The position numbers and the translations under genes are program-made. 64,000 bases of DNA from Fulvivirga marina (GTDB taxonomy: Bacteria; Bacteroidota; Bacteroidia; Cytophagales; Cyclobacteriaceae). Shown one piece after another: positions 28,032 to 32,555 of this stretch. The stretch covers positions 1-64,000 of the forward strand of contig NZ_JAEUGD010000031.1 of the NCBI RefSeq assembly GCF_016775155.1, in the 5' to 3' direction. Under the pieces are notes generated by a model. That model was not told the DNA's origin, ran no database searches, and saw only the letters and a program-made list of their open reading frames with translations. Position 1 is the stretch's first letter, and each line of letters begins with the position of its first letter.

Positions 28032-28610
28032 GTGGCCCATCTTGACAATGACCAAATAATCCTTCGACTAAAGCAAGACGACTCATCATGCCTTGAGGAT
28101 TTAGTGGTTGCTTATAAAAGCTATTGCGTTAATGGATTAAAGAAAAAAACCAAGTGCTCTGATGAAGAAGCTGAAGACTTGTTTATCGATGCTCTTCTGG
28201 AGTTGAGAGACAAAGTGCTTTCAGACAAACTGGACCATTTGCTAAATGCCAAAAGCTATATCTTTGGCATTTGTTACAATAAGTGGTTATCAGCACAACG
28301 CCTGAAAAACAAAACAATCTTTACGTCAATTGATGCAGAGGGCTACTATCAACAATACCTTAAAGATGATTCAAGCCTTGACCTTGAAGATCTGGAATAT
28401 AAAATGCAACTCCTGAACATCACCAACCGGGCCCTGGGGACGATAGGTGAGAAATGTTATAAGCTTATAAAATATTTTTATATTGAAAAACGGAGTATGG
28501 AAGACATCGCTAATATCATGGGGTTTGCAAGCGCCGATGTAGCTAAGACTTCTAAATCAAGATGTTTTAAAAAGCTGGTTGAAAAAACTAAAGAGCTTGA
28601 AAAACTATAA
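28032..28610 (+). CDS. ECF-type RNA polymerase sigma factor
   Basis: A 192-residue sigma-70 family protein. Region 2 spans ~10-85 (CLEDLVVAYKSYCVNGL, DEEAEDLFIDALLELRDKV, SYIFGICYNKWLSAQRLKNK) and region 4 ~130-185 (CYKLIKYFYIEKRSMEDIAN, with an HTH near MGFASADVAKTSKSRCFKKL). It starts with GTG at 28032; no in-frame ATG lies near. It is followed after one base by a membrane TPR protein that probably acts as its regulator, then by a small HTH protein and a CHAT/TPR gene. Its targets are unknown. Confidence 0.88.
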   Translation: MAHLDNDQIILRLKQDDSSCLEDLVVAYKSYCVNGLKKKTKCSDEEAEDLFIDALLELRDKVLSDKLDHLLNAKSYIFGICYNKWLSAQRLKNKTIFTSIDAEGYYQQYLKDDSSLDLEDLEYKMQLLNITNRALGTIGEKCYKLIKYFYIEKRSMEDIANIMGFASADVAKTSKSRCFKKLVEKTKELEKL

Positions 28611-28611
28611 C

Positions 28612-29331
28612 ATGCAAGAAGAGAAACATAGGGCCCTGATAGATAAGTATCTTACTGATACTTTAACCGAAGGCGAAAAGAAAGATTTTATCCTTCTTAT
28701 GGAAAACCCGGAATTTAAAGAAGCTGTGCTTCATGAAAAGCACATAGTGGCCGCACTTAAAGCTAAAGAAAAAGCTAAGCTAAAGGCCAATCTAAAAAGC
28801 TTTTCATCCCGTATCCCTACTACACCTCAACAAACCAGTAATACCAAAAGGCTATGGATGGCGGCGGCTTCTGTCATATTGATTGTCTCCATCGGGTATT
28901 TCATTTACATGAATAACCAGCCTATAAGTAATCAGTTCATAAATTATTATGAACCATACCCAGCAGTAACGATTCAAAGAGGTGAAGGGGAAAAGATAAG
29001 CAAAGCGCTTCAATTATATAGTGAAGAGAAATACCAGGAAGCCGTAGATGAACTTACCAGTTTAGCCAGCCCTGACCAACAGGCTTACTACTTATACCTA
29101 GGCAATTGCTATCTCCAGCTAGATGAAACTCAAAAAGCCATTACTACTTTCGAGAAATTGATAGAAATAAGCAACGACTCTATTTTGACACAACACAGCC
29201 AATGGTACCTGGCTATGGCTCACCTTAAAGCCAACCAATCAGAGCCCTTAAAGATACTTCTTCGGAACATCATCAACCAAAATGGCATGTATTCTGAGCT
29301 TGCCCATAATCTCTTGAAAGAAATAGATTAA
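28612..29331 (+). CDS. Membrane-anchored TPR protein, probable sigma regulator
   Basis: A 239-residue protein started at the ATG at 28612, one base after the sigma factor stop. The N-terminal ~78 residues are cytoplasmic and helical (HRALIDKYLTDTLTEGEKKD, then a lysine-rich stretch). A membrane helix lies at ~80-100 (WMAAASVILIVSIGYFIYM), followed by an extracytoplasmic part with two to three TPR-like repeats (ALQLYSEEKYQEAVDELTSL, YYLYLGNCYLQLDETQKAIT). The topology is that of a single-pass anti-sigma factor, though no zinc-binding motif is visible. Tight coupling to the sigma gene supports that role; it is an inference. Confidence 0.82.
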   Translation: MQEEKHRALIDKYLTDTLTEGEKKDFILLMENPEFKEAVLHEKHIVAALKAKEKAKLKANLKSFSSRIPTTPQQTSNTKRLWMAAASVILIVSIGYFIYMNNQPISNQFINYYEPYPAVTIQRGEGEKISKALQLYSEEKYQEAVDELTSLASPDQQAYYLYLGNCYLQLDETQKAITTFEKLIEISNDSILTQHSQWYLAMAHLKANQSEPLKILLRNIINQNGMYSELAHNLLKEID

Positions 29332-29409
29332 TATATCGAAATAGAACCACTCTCTCTGTTTACTTTTCCATATCAAAAGCACTACTTTTAAAACTAAGTG
29401 ATAAACAGT

Positions 29410-29685
29410 ATGGCTTTTAAATTCGAACAATATCTTAATAATATCGAACGACTGGATCAGCTTATTAGATTAAAATGCACTGGCTCACCAGAATCGCTAT
29501 CAACACGATTAAACATATCAAGAAGTACATTGTACAGACACCTTGAGATCATGCGCATAATAGGTGCCCCCATAACTTACTGTACAAAATATGAGAGCTT
29601 TGTCTACGAATATCCTGTGGATTTCAACTTTGGATTTTCACCTAAATACCGTACGCCCGGTAGGTCTTCCCTTTCTTTGACCTGA
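29410..29685 (+). CDS. Small HTH DNA-binding protein
   Basis: About 91 residues from the ATG at 29410 (a GTG at 29398 would add four). The N-terminal half carries a winged-helix/HTH-11 type motif: NNIERLDQLIRLKCTGSPES, then LSTRLNISRSTLYRHLEIMR and GAPITYCTKYESFVYEY. This pattern is common in small Bacteroidota regulators that accompany TPR and CHAT-type or kinase loci. There is no effector domain. It stands between the sigma/TPR pair and the CHAT gene and may control one of them. Confidence 0.75.
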   Translation: MAFKFEQYLNNIERLDQLIRLKCTGSPESLSTRLNISRSTLYRHLEIMRIIGAPITYCTKYESFVYEYPVDFNFGFSPKYRTPGRSSLSLT

Positions 29686-29899
29686 TCAGGACGAACATCA
29701 GATTCAATCTGGATCGCTATTGTCTTAGTAACCTTACCCGCTTCGCCCCGAACTACAAACTTTCAACAACCAGATTTTCTAACCTAATCAACCAACGATC
29801 AGGATCAATGTTCAGAGATAGAAAGAGCAAGGCAAATAGAGTTGAATAATTTTTAATTCAGGAAACCTTAAAGCTGAAAGGAGTGTTCATATCATTCGC
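29686..29899. other. Intergenic region upstream of the CHAT gene
   Basis: No coding region or hairpin terminator was recognised. The far end carries the promoter of the CHAT/TPR gene. The sequence is less AT-rich around 29720-29790. Confidence 0.35.
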
Positions 29900-29907
29900 T
29901 AAATTTG
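29900..29907 (+). promoter_or_regulatory. Promoter -7 box for the CHAT/TPR gene
   Basis: TAAATTTG fits TAnnTTTG and lies 46 bases before the ATG at 29954. It implies that the CHAT gene has its own transcription unit. Confidence 0.45.
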
Positions 29908-29953
29908 CAGCAATTCAACTGCTTTTTAACGCATTCCACGACTTTAAGCCAAT

Positions 29954-30457
29954 ATGCTCAAGTATTATTTGCTCGTTTTTGTTCTTGCCATATTTACATA
30001 CAGCTCGCCCCCATCATTTGGACAGAATGACTATCTAAAGTCTTTTGACCATCACTACAGCCACGCTCAGTTTGACTCATGTATTCAACTGATCAAAAAA
30101 GTCCTCCCTCGCTATCAAAACAACCCCTCTCAAAAAATAAAACTGCTCAACCTGTTGGGCAAGAGCTATGCGCGTAATTATCAATATGAGGAAGGTCAGG
30201 AAGCCTACACTAAAGCGGCAGCACTGAACAAAGAACGTGGCACCCTCTCAAAGGACGACTACATAGCCAGCTTATTGGGAATTTGTGATGTTTATGCAGC
30301 AGATATGCAAACGGATTCTATGAAAGTTCTACTAGACAGGGTAGAGCTTATGATAGATAAGGACAATAGGCATTATGGGCATTTTCTTTTGAATAGAGGA
30401 AGGGAAAATTTTGAGTTTAACACACTATTGGCAAAAGGTATTTTCTACAAGCTTTAA
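29954..30457 (+). CDS. N-terminal fragment of the TPR-CHAT gene
   Basis: A 167-residue readable piece: signal peptide (residues 1-24), then helical repeats (LLGKSYARNYQYEEGQEAYT, YIASLLGICDVYAADMQTDS). It ends abruptly at GIFYKL, where the next repeat is continued in another frame. If the frameshift is real, a short secreted TPR peptide could still be made. Confidence 0.6.
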   Translation: MLKYYLLVFVLAIFTYSSPPSFGQNDYLKSFDHHYSHAQFDSCIQLIKKVLPRYQNNPSQKIKLLNLLGKSYARNYQYEEGQEAYTKAAALNKERGTLSKDDYIASLLGICDVYAADMQTDSMKVLLDRVELMIDKDNRHYGHFLLNRGRENFEFNTLLAKGIFYKL

Positions 30458-30761
30458 ACTCATTATCACAACGGAATCATTTAATTATTGAAGCTCATAT
30501 TTCCCTTGGGCAAATATATAATTTTCAGATAACACGACCTTATGATAGTGCCGATCATCATATTTCCAAAGCAATACAGTTAGCTCATGAACAATTTAAC
30601 TCAGATCAAACAGCTCTTTTACAATGCTTTATCCATAAAGCTAATTATTTGAGAGTAACCCATAGTGTGGATAGCGCAATTTCCTTTTTGGAAACAAATG
30701 CCTTCAAGAATCTAAATAACACCACAAGAGTCATTCTATATTTTAAAGTGAAATTTATGAA

Positions 30762-32555
30762 ATGATGAGTTTATGTTATGAGTTCAATGGCAATGATAAA
30801 AGACAATTGGAATGTGCCAAATATAATATCAATATTAAAACCAAATTACTAAATCCAAATCACCCCCAAATCGCAAAGGCCTATATTAGACTTGCGAGAG
30901 CATTTGCAAAATTAGAAATGCTTGCTCAATCTAACCTGTCAAATATTGGTTATAGAATTAATGAAAGCCTTATTCAAAGTGGAGAATATTATAGAATTAT
31001 AGAGGCGTACCAAAGAACACTTTTTACACTATATAATTTATCTCTAAATAAGTCTCACCTCGCAGAAGCATATTTAACATCCGAGATAACAAAAGCTAGT
31101 ACAATCCACCAATCCCAATACTACTATTCTTCAGTTAAATACTTAGGCATATCCGAAGACTTAATTACTGAAGAAGCCATTTTAAAAAAGGAGCTAAGTT
31201 TTCTACAGTCAAAAAAAATAGAATTAGTAAAAAACAATGCTAATCAAACCGAGATTCATAAGGTACAAAACAAATTATTCAATAAGCATAAATCCTATGA
31301 CAGTCTAATCTCACACCTCGAACAAAACTACCCCGAATACTATAACCTCAAATACAATTTCGATGTGTTGTCAATAGAAGAAGTACAACAAAAACTTAAG
31401 TCTAATGAAGCATTGATAGAATATTTTAATGGGAATGATCAAACCTATGTATTTACCATCACAAAAGACACTGCCACATTCCAGGCTATGCCCTTGGTAA
31501 AATATGATCGTATAGAAAAACTTAGAAATACACTGACCAACTCTGCTCTTAAAAACCCATCTCAAGCCTACATGGATTATTCAAAAGCAGCCTATCAACT
31601 CTTTAAAGAAATCCTGGCCACCCCACTTAAAAATATTGATACTACAAAGATCAACACCCTTAGAATAATACCTGATGGTTTACTGGGACTCATCCCTTTT
31701 GAAACACTATTAACTCAACCTGTTCATAAACAAGCAGAAGACTACCGTAGTTTACCCTATCTCTTCAAAAAATTTAATATTAGCTATGGATATTCTGCCA
31801 CATCTATGTTCAAGTTCAATGAACATAAAAAGTCAGTGAGTTCAGCCCAGGTCCTGGCTTTTGCTCCTTCAGAGTTAACTCCTTCTGTAAAAACTGCTGA
31901 TCTGGCCCCATTAAAGTCGAACCTTCAGGAAGTGTTCCACCTCAATAACTATTTTGACCATCATAATTTGACAGGGGAAGAAGCCACGGAAACAGCATTC
32001 AAAGAAAAAATAAAAGACTATCCCATCGCTCACCTGGCCATGCATGCCATCATTGACGACGAAGACCCCATGTACTCCAAGCTGTTGTTCGCACCCTCAA
32101 AAGATACTTTGGAAGACGGTATGCTCCACACCTTCGAGCTGTACAACATGCGCCTGAATACGCAAATGGTAGTACTCAGTGCTTGTAATACAGGAAGCGG
32201 AAAATTACAAAAAGGAGAAGGGGTAATTGCCTATGCGGGCAGCCCTTCTGTGGTTATGAGCCACTGGGCCGTGGACGACAAGTCTACTGCTGAGCTCATG
32301 AAGCACTTTTACAAACATTTAAGCAATGGTCACCCAAAGGATGTAGCGCTACGCAATGCCAAGCTGGATTTCTTAAAAAATGCTCCTCCCATCTATCACC
32401 ACCCTTACTACTGGAACAATTTTGTGGTAATGGGCGACCCCGCGCCTGTTGCAAGCGAATGGTATGGATGGAAAATCGTGGTTGCTCTACGTACGGCAAT
32501 GTTCTTTGCCATGATACTAGCCATTTCCAACAGACACAAAATGATTAAGTACTGA
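30762..32555 (+). CDS. C-terminal CHAT fragment of the TPR-CHAT gene
   Basis: A 597-residue open frame. It begins inside the TPR region, has a coiled segment (~120-185), then a CHAT peptidase domain (~190-565). The domain shows IPDGLLGLIPFETLL, the His motif HLAMHA, the Cys motif LSACNTGSG and AYAGSPSVVMSHWAVDDKST. A membrane helix near ~575-590 (VALRTAMFFAMILAI) ends it. CHAT proteins are caspase-like cysteine proteases, often used in signalling or cell death. On its own this piece lacks a signal peptide, so activity in this strain is uncertain. Confidence 0.65.
   Translation: MMSLCYEFNGNDKRQLECAKYNINIKTKLLNPNHPQIAKAYIRLARAFAKLEMLAQSNLSNIGYRINESLIQSGEYYRIIEAYQRTLFTLYNLSLNKSHLAEAYLTSEITKASTIHQSQYYYSSVKYLGISEDLITEEAILKKELSFLQSKKIELVKNNANQTEIHKVQNKLFNKHKSYDSLISHLEQNYPEYYNLKYNFDVLSIEEVQQKLKSNEALIEYFNGNDQTYVFTITKDTATFQAMPLVKYDRIEKLRNTLTNSALKNPSQAYMDYSKAAYQLFKEILATPLKNIDTTKINTLRIIPDGLLGLIPFETLLTQPVHKQAEDYRSLPYLFKKFNISYGYSATSMFKFNEHKKSVSSAQVLAFAPSELTPSVKTADLAPLKSNLQEVFHLNNYFDHHNLTGEEATETAFKEKIKDYPIAHLAMHAIIDDEDPMYSKLLFAPSKDTLEDGMLHTFELYNMRLNTQMVVLSACNTGSGKLQKGEGVIAYAGSPSVVMSHWAVDDKSTAELMKHFYKHLSNGHPKDVALRNAKLDFLKNAPPIYHHPYYWNNFVVMGDPAPVASEWYGWKIVVALRTAMFFAMILAISNRHKMIKY

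Follow-up and report, generated by a model that had tools for sequence, protein, structure and literature searches.

A predicted signalling module of sigma factor, TPR anti-sigma factor and membrane-anchored CHAT protease in Fulvivirga marina and other Bacteroidota

Positions 28032 to 32555 of the 64,000-nucleotide stretch of Fulvivirga marina DNA considered here (the window; contig NZ_JAEUGD010000031.1) carry genes for a sigma factor, a single-pass membrane protein with tetratricopeptide repeats (TPR), a small helix-turn-helix (HTH) protein and a TPR-CHAT protein of the caspase-like fold. The locus raises the question of what a CHAT protein does beside a sigma factor and its membrane-bound neighbour. 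The first-pass annotation offered two answers, namely that the CHAT protein could cut the TPR protein to free the sigma factor, or that the sigma factor could drive the protease. We regard the former as the probable one and assign, from comparison of sequences, a probability of about 0.7 to the reading that the anchored CHAT protein is a site-1 protease that cuts the TPR anti-sigma factor and thereby frees the sigma factor. The reading applies to the family, where co-localisation, membrane anchors, a conserved linker arginine and the correlated loss of Arg and Glu point to it; the protease copy of the window itself is probably dead, so that the case for cleavage rests on its paralogues and relatives.

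The sigma factor gene (28032..28610, +) has a GTG start and encodes an extracytoplasmic function (ECF)-type protein of 192 aa. It belongs to the sigma-70 family by its match to the NCBIfam model TIGR02937 (5.9e-13; 48.8 bits, cut-off 42.9), and a Pfam scan of it gave no sigma match. The gene for the TPR protein (28612..29331, +; 239 aa) starts one base past the sigma stop according to the open reading frame (ORF) listing and the sequence, and the close pair noted by the first-pass annotation is thus borne out by the coordinates, TIGR02937, the Pfam TPR matches and the AlphaFold2 model. In this model (predicted local distance difference test, pLDDT, 89), the sole long hydrophobic helix comprises residues 80-101 (28849..28914, +), a hydrophobic stretch taken as the transmembrane helix, and is followed by a short helix (105-112), a coil (113-126) and the first TPR helix from residue 127. 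The TPR helices, supported by both Pfam and the model, span residues 127-238 (28990..29325, +). The predicted scissile bond, Arg123-Gly124 (28978..28983, +), is situated in the coil of the juxtamembrane linker, where the surrounding block has a pLDDT of ~70. This layout would place the helical N-domain in the cytoplasm and the TPR part, beyond membrane and linker, in the periplasm, and the protein is predicted to be an anti-sigma factor that holds the sigma factor by its N-domain. The FecR domain, which marks the anti-sigma factors of FecI/FecR signalling, is absent from the window protein; a Pfam scan of 50 members matched 51 families, and FecR is not among the 25 most frequent of these.

From the comparisons below we infer anti-sigma activity, topology, cleavage, signalling direction and a site-2 step, which together would make up a three-gene envelope-signalling module of Bacteroidota composed of sigma factor, TPR anti-sigma factor and anchored CHAT protein. 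In the resting state, the cytoplasmic N-domain of the single-pass TPR protein would hold the sigma factor, and its partner would be a TPR-CHAT protease that is exported and tethered to the inner membrane by its C-terminal helix. A signal in the periplasm, for which the TPR superhelices may be the sensor, would cause the CHAT protein to cut the juxtamembrane linker of the anti-sigma factor after an arginine that is followed by Gly or Ser; some lineages have Met or Leu in place of this arginine. What is left in the membrane would then presumably be degraded by a site-2 protease to leave the sigma factor free; this last step is proposed because known systems work so.

The linkage of the three genes extends well beyond the window. 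The own genome (G000, 6.78 Mb) has eight CHAT genes. At E 1e-15 or better, the TPR membrane protein has three paralogues there, and a CHAT gene lies within ~4 kb of each of the four sigma/TPR pairs of this genome (4/4), in varying orientations. The stretches of 14-16 kb around two weaker anti-sigma-like relatives in this genome (L025, L026) gave no CHAT match. A profile of the four own TPR paralogues, all of them CHAT-linked (A1), finds the TPR membrane protein at E<=1e-6 in 47 of 60 family genomes, the own one included, and CHAT is found at E<=1e-10 in 52 of the 60. Both are present in 47 genomes, the TPR protein alone in none, CHAT alone in five and neither in eight (Fisher p=5e-7); the TPR hits are exclusively weak in five of the 47 (G007, G010, G014, G042 and G054). 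A further profile (A3) comprises 50 linked TPR proteins, so that both profiles were seeded from linked members. Among the strongest 80 family loci of the matches listed, own genome left out, an ORF with a match to the sigma hidden Markov model adjoins the TPR membrane protein gene in 70. A CHAT ORF occurs within 5 kb in 49 of these 80; of the 56 loci flanked by 5 kb or more of sequence on either side, 43 have one, where 1.93 would be expected from CHAT density. Outside the family, a 50-row profile was run against 395 genomes of the phylum with six candidates scored per genome, and 50/395 were positive at 1e-20; among 40 loci chosen from these rows, CHAT lies beside the pair in 29. The first-pass annotation would have attributed the association to chance had such pairs almost never been near CHAT genes, and both surveys came out for the link. 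The pair and the CHAT gene are arranged in four orientations among the 119 pairs described below, and linked hosts include Maribacter, Bizionia, Winogradskyella, Lacinutrix, Belliella and Fulvivirga. There is no fourth constant gene: beyond sigma, TPR membrane protein and CHAT, no neighbour cluster is present in more than 16 of 118 loci.

The linked CHAT proteins are distinguished by a membrane anchor. In the first set of 53 loci, 58 CHAT ORFs lie at most 5 kb from a pair, a number that includes the own genome, cut ORFs and the broken copy of the window. All 58 have a hydrophobic stretch close to the C-terminus, and all 58 have Lys or Arg among the last 12 residues. The stretch is present in 6 of 45 unlinked CHAT proteins (Fisher p=2e-22 versus the linked ones, descent ignored), and the other 39 terminate at the end of the CHAT domain or no more than a few residues from it. 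The unlinked set consists of four own proteins and 41 from 40 stretches, which were taken as about every second of 82 score-ranked rows among the matches listed, with G022 left out; four of these stretches contain an ECF-like ORF somewhere (L151, L156, L164 and L167) and one a weak hit to the TPR membrane protein (L165). In the outside-family set, 28 of 29 linked CHAT proteins pass the anchor threshold, and the one miss (L206 by its rounded value) lies at the threshold. A hydrophobic N-terminus, judged by hydropathy alone, is common to both kinds (54/58 linked, the rest being cut or broken ORFs, and 37/41 unlinked). The association is also visible from the CHAT side. Among named contigs found by CHAT similarity (the best 80 of at least 538), 67 CHAT proteins are anchored, 38 of them linked, and 13 are unanchored, one of them linked (L251); with full flanks, linked proteins make up 25/37 of the anchored versus 1/12 of the unanchored.

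The linker of the anti-sigma factor contains a conserved basic site. For comparison of residues, 119 pairs were kept in which the TPR match has E<=1e-15, the TPR ORF at least 190 aa and the CHAT ORF at least 400 aa. The linker column is Arg in 104 of these pairs, Met in 10 and another residue in 5; it is preceded by a membrane-proximal Y-F-x-P-Y-P-N consensus and followed by Gly in 58 and Ser in 44. The motif R[GS] is observed in 90 of the 119 linkers, versus a mean of 21.7 and a maximum of 34 upon shuffling, and in 10-13 of 119 in each of five other segments.

The identity of this linker residue co-varies with a residue of the CHAT domain. Of the 104 Arg pairs, 100 have Glu at alignment column 504 of CHAT, as do 45/45 unlinked CHAT proteins. 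In the ten pairs with a "DPG..M" linker, this column is Leu (9) or Ala (1), and Glu replaces the Asp of WxVxD (column 684) in 10/10. Three further pairs, assigned to the Met type by eye since Met stands next to the aligned column, which reads D, H and N, have Ser (L132, L206) or Asn (L226) at column 504. Thus, column 504 is non-acidic in 13/13 Met-type pairs versus 4/104 Arg pairs. A Met-type profile was run against 395 genomes of the class, and eight new loci were taken. In five of them, the linker site is Met (4) or Leu (1) and a CHAT gene is a neighbour; column 504 of these five CHAT proteins is Leu, Ala, Thr, Thr and Leu, all non-acidic; the stretches of the other three (L302-L304) contain no CHAT, and two of these carry Arg-type linkers. 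Altogether, non-acidic residues are observed in 18/18 Met/Leu pairs (13+5) versus 4/104 Arg pairs (p=5e-18, descent ignored). The pattern also agrees with L105, in which the linker site is Leu, column 504 is Ser and the CHAT gene lies slightly more than 5 kb off.

A structure model of a full-length CHAT protein from Maribacter algarum (L256, 917 aa; pLDDT 88.6, predicted template modelling score 0.85) suggests where these columns are located. Besides its TPR helices, the model shows a caspase-like part, and it ends in a helix (892-916). By alignment numbering, column 504 corresponds to Glu709 in the helix 706-713, and column 684 to Asp829 just past the strand 819-823; from the order of strands and helices, we read this helix as alpha1 and the region of Asp829 as L5. 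The available part of a review of clan CD (PMC4357240) states that S1 specificity is set by alpha1, L4 and L5, and that Asp365 (alpha1) and Glu500 (L5) of MALT1 contact the P1 Arg. The Glu of column 504 is therefore a candidate P1-specificity residue, as far as its modelled position goes. Foldseek with the L256 model returned Csx29 first (1.2e-14), followed by DdvA (4.6e-12) and separase (1.6e-11), all with modest TM-scores. A likeness between the S1 pockets of Met-type CHAT proteins and Csx29 was considered; the Csx29 alignment is gapped at the Glu column, and equivalence is therefore not claimed.

Taken together, linkage, anchoring, co-variation and the conservation of one basic site in a linker that otherwise varies make cleavage by CHAT after the linker Arg the simplest reading. 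Several observations weigh against it. Pairs without a CHAT gene within 5 kb amount to 13 of the 56 well-flanked family loci, pairs without CHAT to 11 of the 40 loci outside the family, and 12 of the 37 well-flanked anchored CHAT genes of the named contigs (best 80 of at least 538) have no detected pair. In a FastTree phylogeny, the 39 unanchored CHAT proteins form one supported clade and the six anchored unlinked ones fall among the linked, a grouping by descent that the anchor p-value ignores. No anti-sigma family is matched above cut-off by the N-domain of the TPR protein, the nearest being NF052375 at 0.0042. The own genome has two PF02163 (M50) genes, and such genes are also found in 14/14 control genomes; since M50 is near-universal, its presence says little. 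Exceptions to the co-variation are four Arg pairs that lack the acid at column 504 (L116, L240 with an odd linker, L279, and L288 with a gap in a fragment) and two pairs that keep Glu at column 504 although the linker column is not Arg (L113, L233). The five new Met/Leu CHAT proteins and the ten of the DPG pairs form one clade (support 93), which is the largest Met clade. L132 with L206, and L226, are placed elsewhere in the trees, which gives three changes of site type, of which well-supported branches force only one; a sign test needs at least six independent pairs to reach 0.05. A second tree gives four changes of column 504; eleven loci were left out of it, including three of the four Arg exceptions (L116, L240 and L288), and its Arg rows were halved. 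The third tree leaves out L288, L116, L215 and L097, with the Arg rows thinned likewise. With one forced switch and the new loci in the same lineage, much of the correlation may be due to shared descent, and our confidence was slightly lowered on this account.

Among the alternatives, the one that survives best is still an unlikely one, namely that transcription of CHAT depends on the sigma factor, which would make CHAT an output (effector) of the regulon and the linker Arg a structural feature. The two genes lie near each other, and ECF factors often control neighbouring genes. Nevertheless, in 85 loci promoter-like blocks are shared between the upstream regions of sigma and CHAT genes no more than between those of sigma genes and their other neighbours (mean rank 0.476, p=0.21), a test of low power, and this half of the first-pass proposal thus found no support. 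It would also leave unexplained both the co-variation of Arg or Met with Glu or non-acidic residues and the anchors of the linked CHAT proteins. A slightly less probable alternative takes the TPRs of both proteins as a hint that CHAT signals to the anti-sigma factor by TPR-TPR contact without a cut, the protease having other targets. This is difficult to reconcile with a dyad Cys that is kept in 103/103, 10/10 and 45/45 CHAT proteins, or 113/113 of the Arg and Met types together, and with co-variation at a position fit for substrate specificity.

We consider it improbable that the locus serves cell death or anti-phage defence, with CHAT as the toxin and the sigma pair merely as its regulator. 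Conflict systems do include caspase-fold proteins, some with ECF sigma and TPR genes, in the part of PMC8195603 accessible to us. However, a PADLOC scan of seven proteins left sigma, TPR membrane protein and CHAT unmatched, apart from one CHAT protein that hit a generic TPR model; the HTH protein gave two weak hits. The neighbours also argue against a defence role, since five of the ten recurrent-neighbour representatives scanned match OmpA, collagen, beta-helix, beta-lactamase or kelch models and five match nothing. The remaining neighbour clusters resemble housekeeping genes by eye, the smaller clusters being partly annotated, and the content of the clusters would fit an envelope regulon. 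Mere chance proximity of pair and CHAT, to which the decay of the window's own CHAT gene might lend some colour, hardly merits consideration against 43/56 observed with 1.93 expected and the repetition outside the family (29/40).

The reading of an anchored CHAT protease that cuts the anti-sigma factor has relatives among known systems, and the earlier remark that no such circuit is described was too strong. The available text of PMC10028731 reports that in Craspase (CASP) of type III-E CRISPR, the TPR-CHAT protein Csx29 cuts Csx30, a binder and inhibitor of the ECF-like CASP-sigma; Csx29 works with Cas7-11 and is RNA-activated, and the cut in Csx30 falls in a loop of the C-terminal domain, in Desulfonema ishimotonii between residues 427 and 429, where deletion of M427 blocks cleavage. 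For one Craspase, the excerpt of PMC9729208 gives the separase P1-Arg residue Asp2151 as replaced by Lys670 (K670) and Csx30 as cut after Leu407, a hydrophobic P1 as in the Met/Leu-type pairs here. The two systems are alike in that a TPR-CHAT protease is encoded next to an ECF-like sigma factor and an inhibitor of sigma, and the anchored CHAT model matches Csx29 best. They differ in membrane topology, as both partners here look membrane-bound and the predicted cut lies outside the cytoplasm. No constant Cas7-11 partner was found among the neighbours of 118 loci, where no search was aimed at CRISPR arrays or single Cas genes. To our knowledge, Csx29 has neither a signal peptide nor a membrane anchor, unlike the linked CHAT proteins with their C-terminal hydrophobic helix (58/58) and hydrophobic N-terminus (54/58).

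In the RseA-DegS-RseP system, a single-pass anti-sigma factor is cut outside the cytoplasm near the membrane in regulated proteolysis; the site-1 protease here would differ in being a clan CD cysteine protease rather than a serine protease. The PDB entries 8rot and 8rw5 name DdvA as "transmembrane anti-sigma factor" and "CHAT domain-containing protein". Going by names, titles and fold match, DdvA combines an anti-sigma factor with a CHAT fold, and this fusion supports a link between the two, although it is one chain there and separate ORFs in the present loci. A triad of protease, anti-sigma factor and ECF sigma factor is also formed by CalpL-CalpT-CalpS, in which, as described in the accessible part of PMC11417357, the protease is a Lon-SAVED protein activated by cyclic oligoadenylate, unlike the CHAT protein here. 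The EACC2/caspase neighbourhoods, with an ECF sigma factor and a TPR DUF1822 protein in the available portion of PMC8195603, share the caspase fold, ECF sigma and TPR genes with our loci, while the proteins are others and that portion contains no anchored CHAT with a single-pass anti-sigma factor. The literature search, which left out most subscription journals and in part covered the best 8-20 of many papers, found no anchored CHAT protein with a TPR anti-sigma factor in Bacteroidota, and for CHAT domain and anti-sigma together it turned up PMC10028731 alone, with the same journals outside its reach.

The link between CHAT and sigma factors was therefore already known from Craspase and DdvA, and the predicted pairing of a membrane-anchored CHAT protein with a TPR anti-sigma factor is a new form of it. 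If correct, the reading would explain what a large group of exported, so far uncharacterised CHAT proteins does and what these proteins naturally cleave, and it would add a clan CD site-1 protease to the envelope signalling of Bacteroidota. The naturally occurring series of protease-substrate pairs would allow P1 specificity to be studied one residue at a time, and Craspase would find its place inside a wider family of CHAT-sigma circuits. We lean only slightly towards the more general proposal that a widespread non-CRISPR branch of CHAT consists of periplasmic, membrane-anchored, separase-like anti-sigma site-1 proteases, present as several insulated copies per genome, whose P1 specificity, shifting from Arg to Met/Leu, evolves together with the linker of the cognate partner. 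On this view, the CHAT-to-sigma theme would be broader, with Craspase as one member that works in the cytoplasm.

In the window, the sigma/anti-sigma pair is open and the protease gene appears decayed. The CHAT gene is divided over three frames. Its first piece (29954..30457, +) is an ORF with a signal-peptide-like N-terminus and TPR (TPR_2 at 9e-4, under the Pfam cut-off), whose frame closes at 30455 in the stop map; the second (30421..30762, +) is open in the third frame by the stop map and has no Pfam match; the third (30762..32555, +), in a frame open from 30747 and matched by tblastn, comprises the CHAT domain (PF12770, 2.3e-54) and the C-terminal membrane helix. Matches of tblastn with six relatives as queries are confined to this third piece. 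The domain (31587-32438) is a CHAT domain (PF12770, clan CD) with the His/Cys dyad, in which the catalytic Cys (32184..32186, +) is conserved across the CHAT alignment and the catalytic His is taken to be the conserved column at 32043..32045 (+), an assumption as to which of two conserved His is meant. The Glu of alignment column 504, the candidate S1 residue for the P1 Arg, is located at 31929..31931 (+), and the membrane anchor at approximately 32466..32528 (+), from hydropathy with limits set by eye. A six-residue gap is present in the domain where the three linked paralogues read LARGFM, LGRAFQ or LATGFL. The exported TPR-CHAT protein of the first-pass annotation thus retains its dyad and C-terminal helix but not an intact gene. 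As judged from the sequence, the gene is probably a pseudogene; it is possible that the frame breaks are due to sequencing or assembly error.

The small HTH protein is present as annotated (29410-29685; HTH_11 at 1.5e-5 in Pfam), but its gene is probably outside the sigma/TPR/CHAT system. It belongs to a dispersed family with matches in 31 of 60 family genomes and five in the own genome, and among 1575 neighbour proteins of 118 module loci it has no significant relative besides itself (best other E 0.16). As a component of the module it is thus unsupported, being from a dispersed family and not a recurring neighbour of module loci. One HTH relative with an internal stop (G016:C23:442814-443029) is located ~1.3 kb from the L074 pair; otherwise, there is no sign of a link to the module.

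We also note some variation in the arrangement of CHAT genes and pairs. Anchored CHAT genes with no pair detected nearby include L137, L149, L157, L170 and L023. Three genomes hold both a lone anchored CHAT gene and a well-flanked pair that lacks CHAT (G012, L137/L080; G016, L157/L074; G048, L149/L122), as if the two were partners in trans. Weaker anti-sigma-like hits (E ~1e-7 to 1e-9) occur at most 2.2 kb from CHAT genes at G025:C4, G025:C45, G016:C12 and G016:C34, so that the system may extend to more diverged anti-sigma factors. In L253, L087, L092 and L058, a single sigma pair has two tandem CHAT genes beside it. CHAT is strongly expanded in G022 (~3.7 Mb), which has 71 CHAT candidates (32 scored, 32/32 matching), many of them in a row on contig C190, and 13 hits to the TPR membrane protein. 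In the paralogous locus L018:7185-9534 (G000:C37), an exported papain-family protein (Peptidase_C1, 5.5e-11) and a small lipoprotein-like gene are located between the divergent sigma pair and CHAT.

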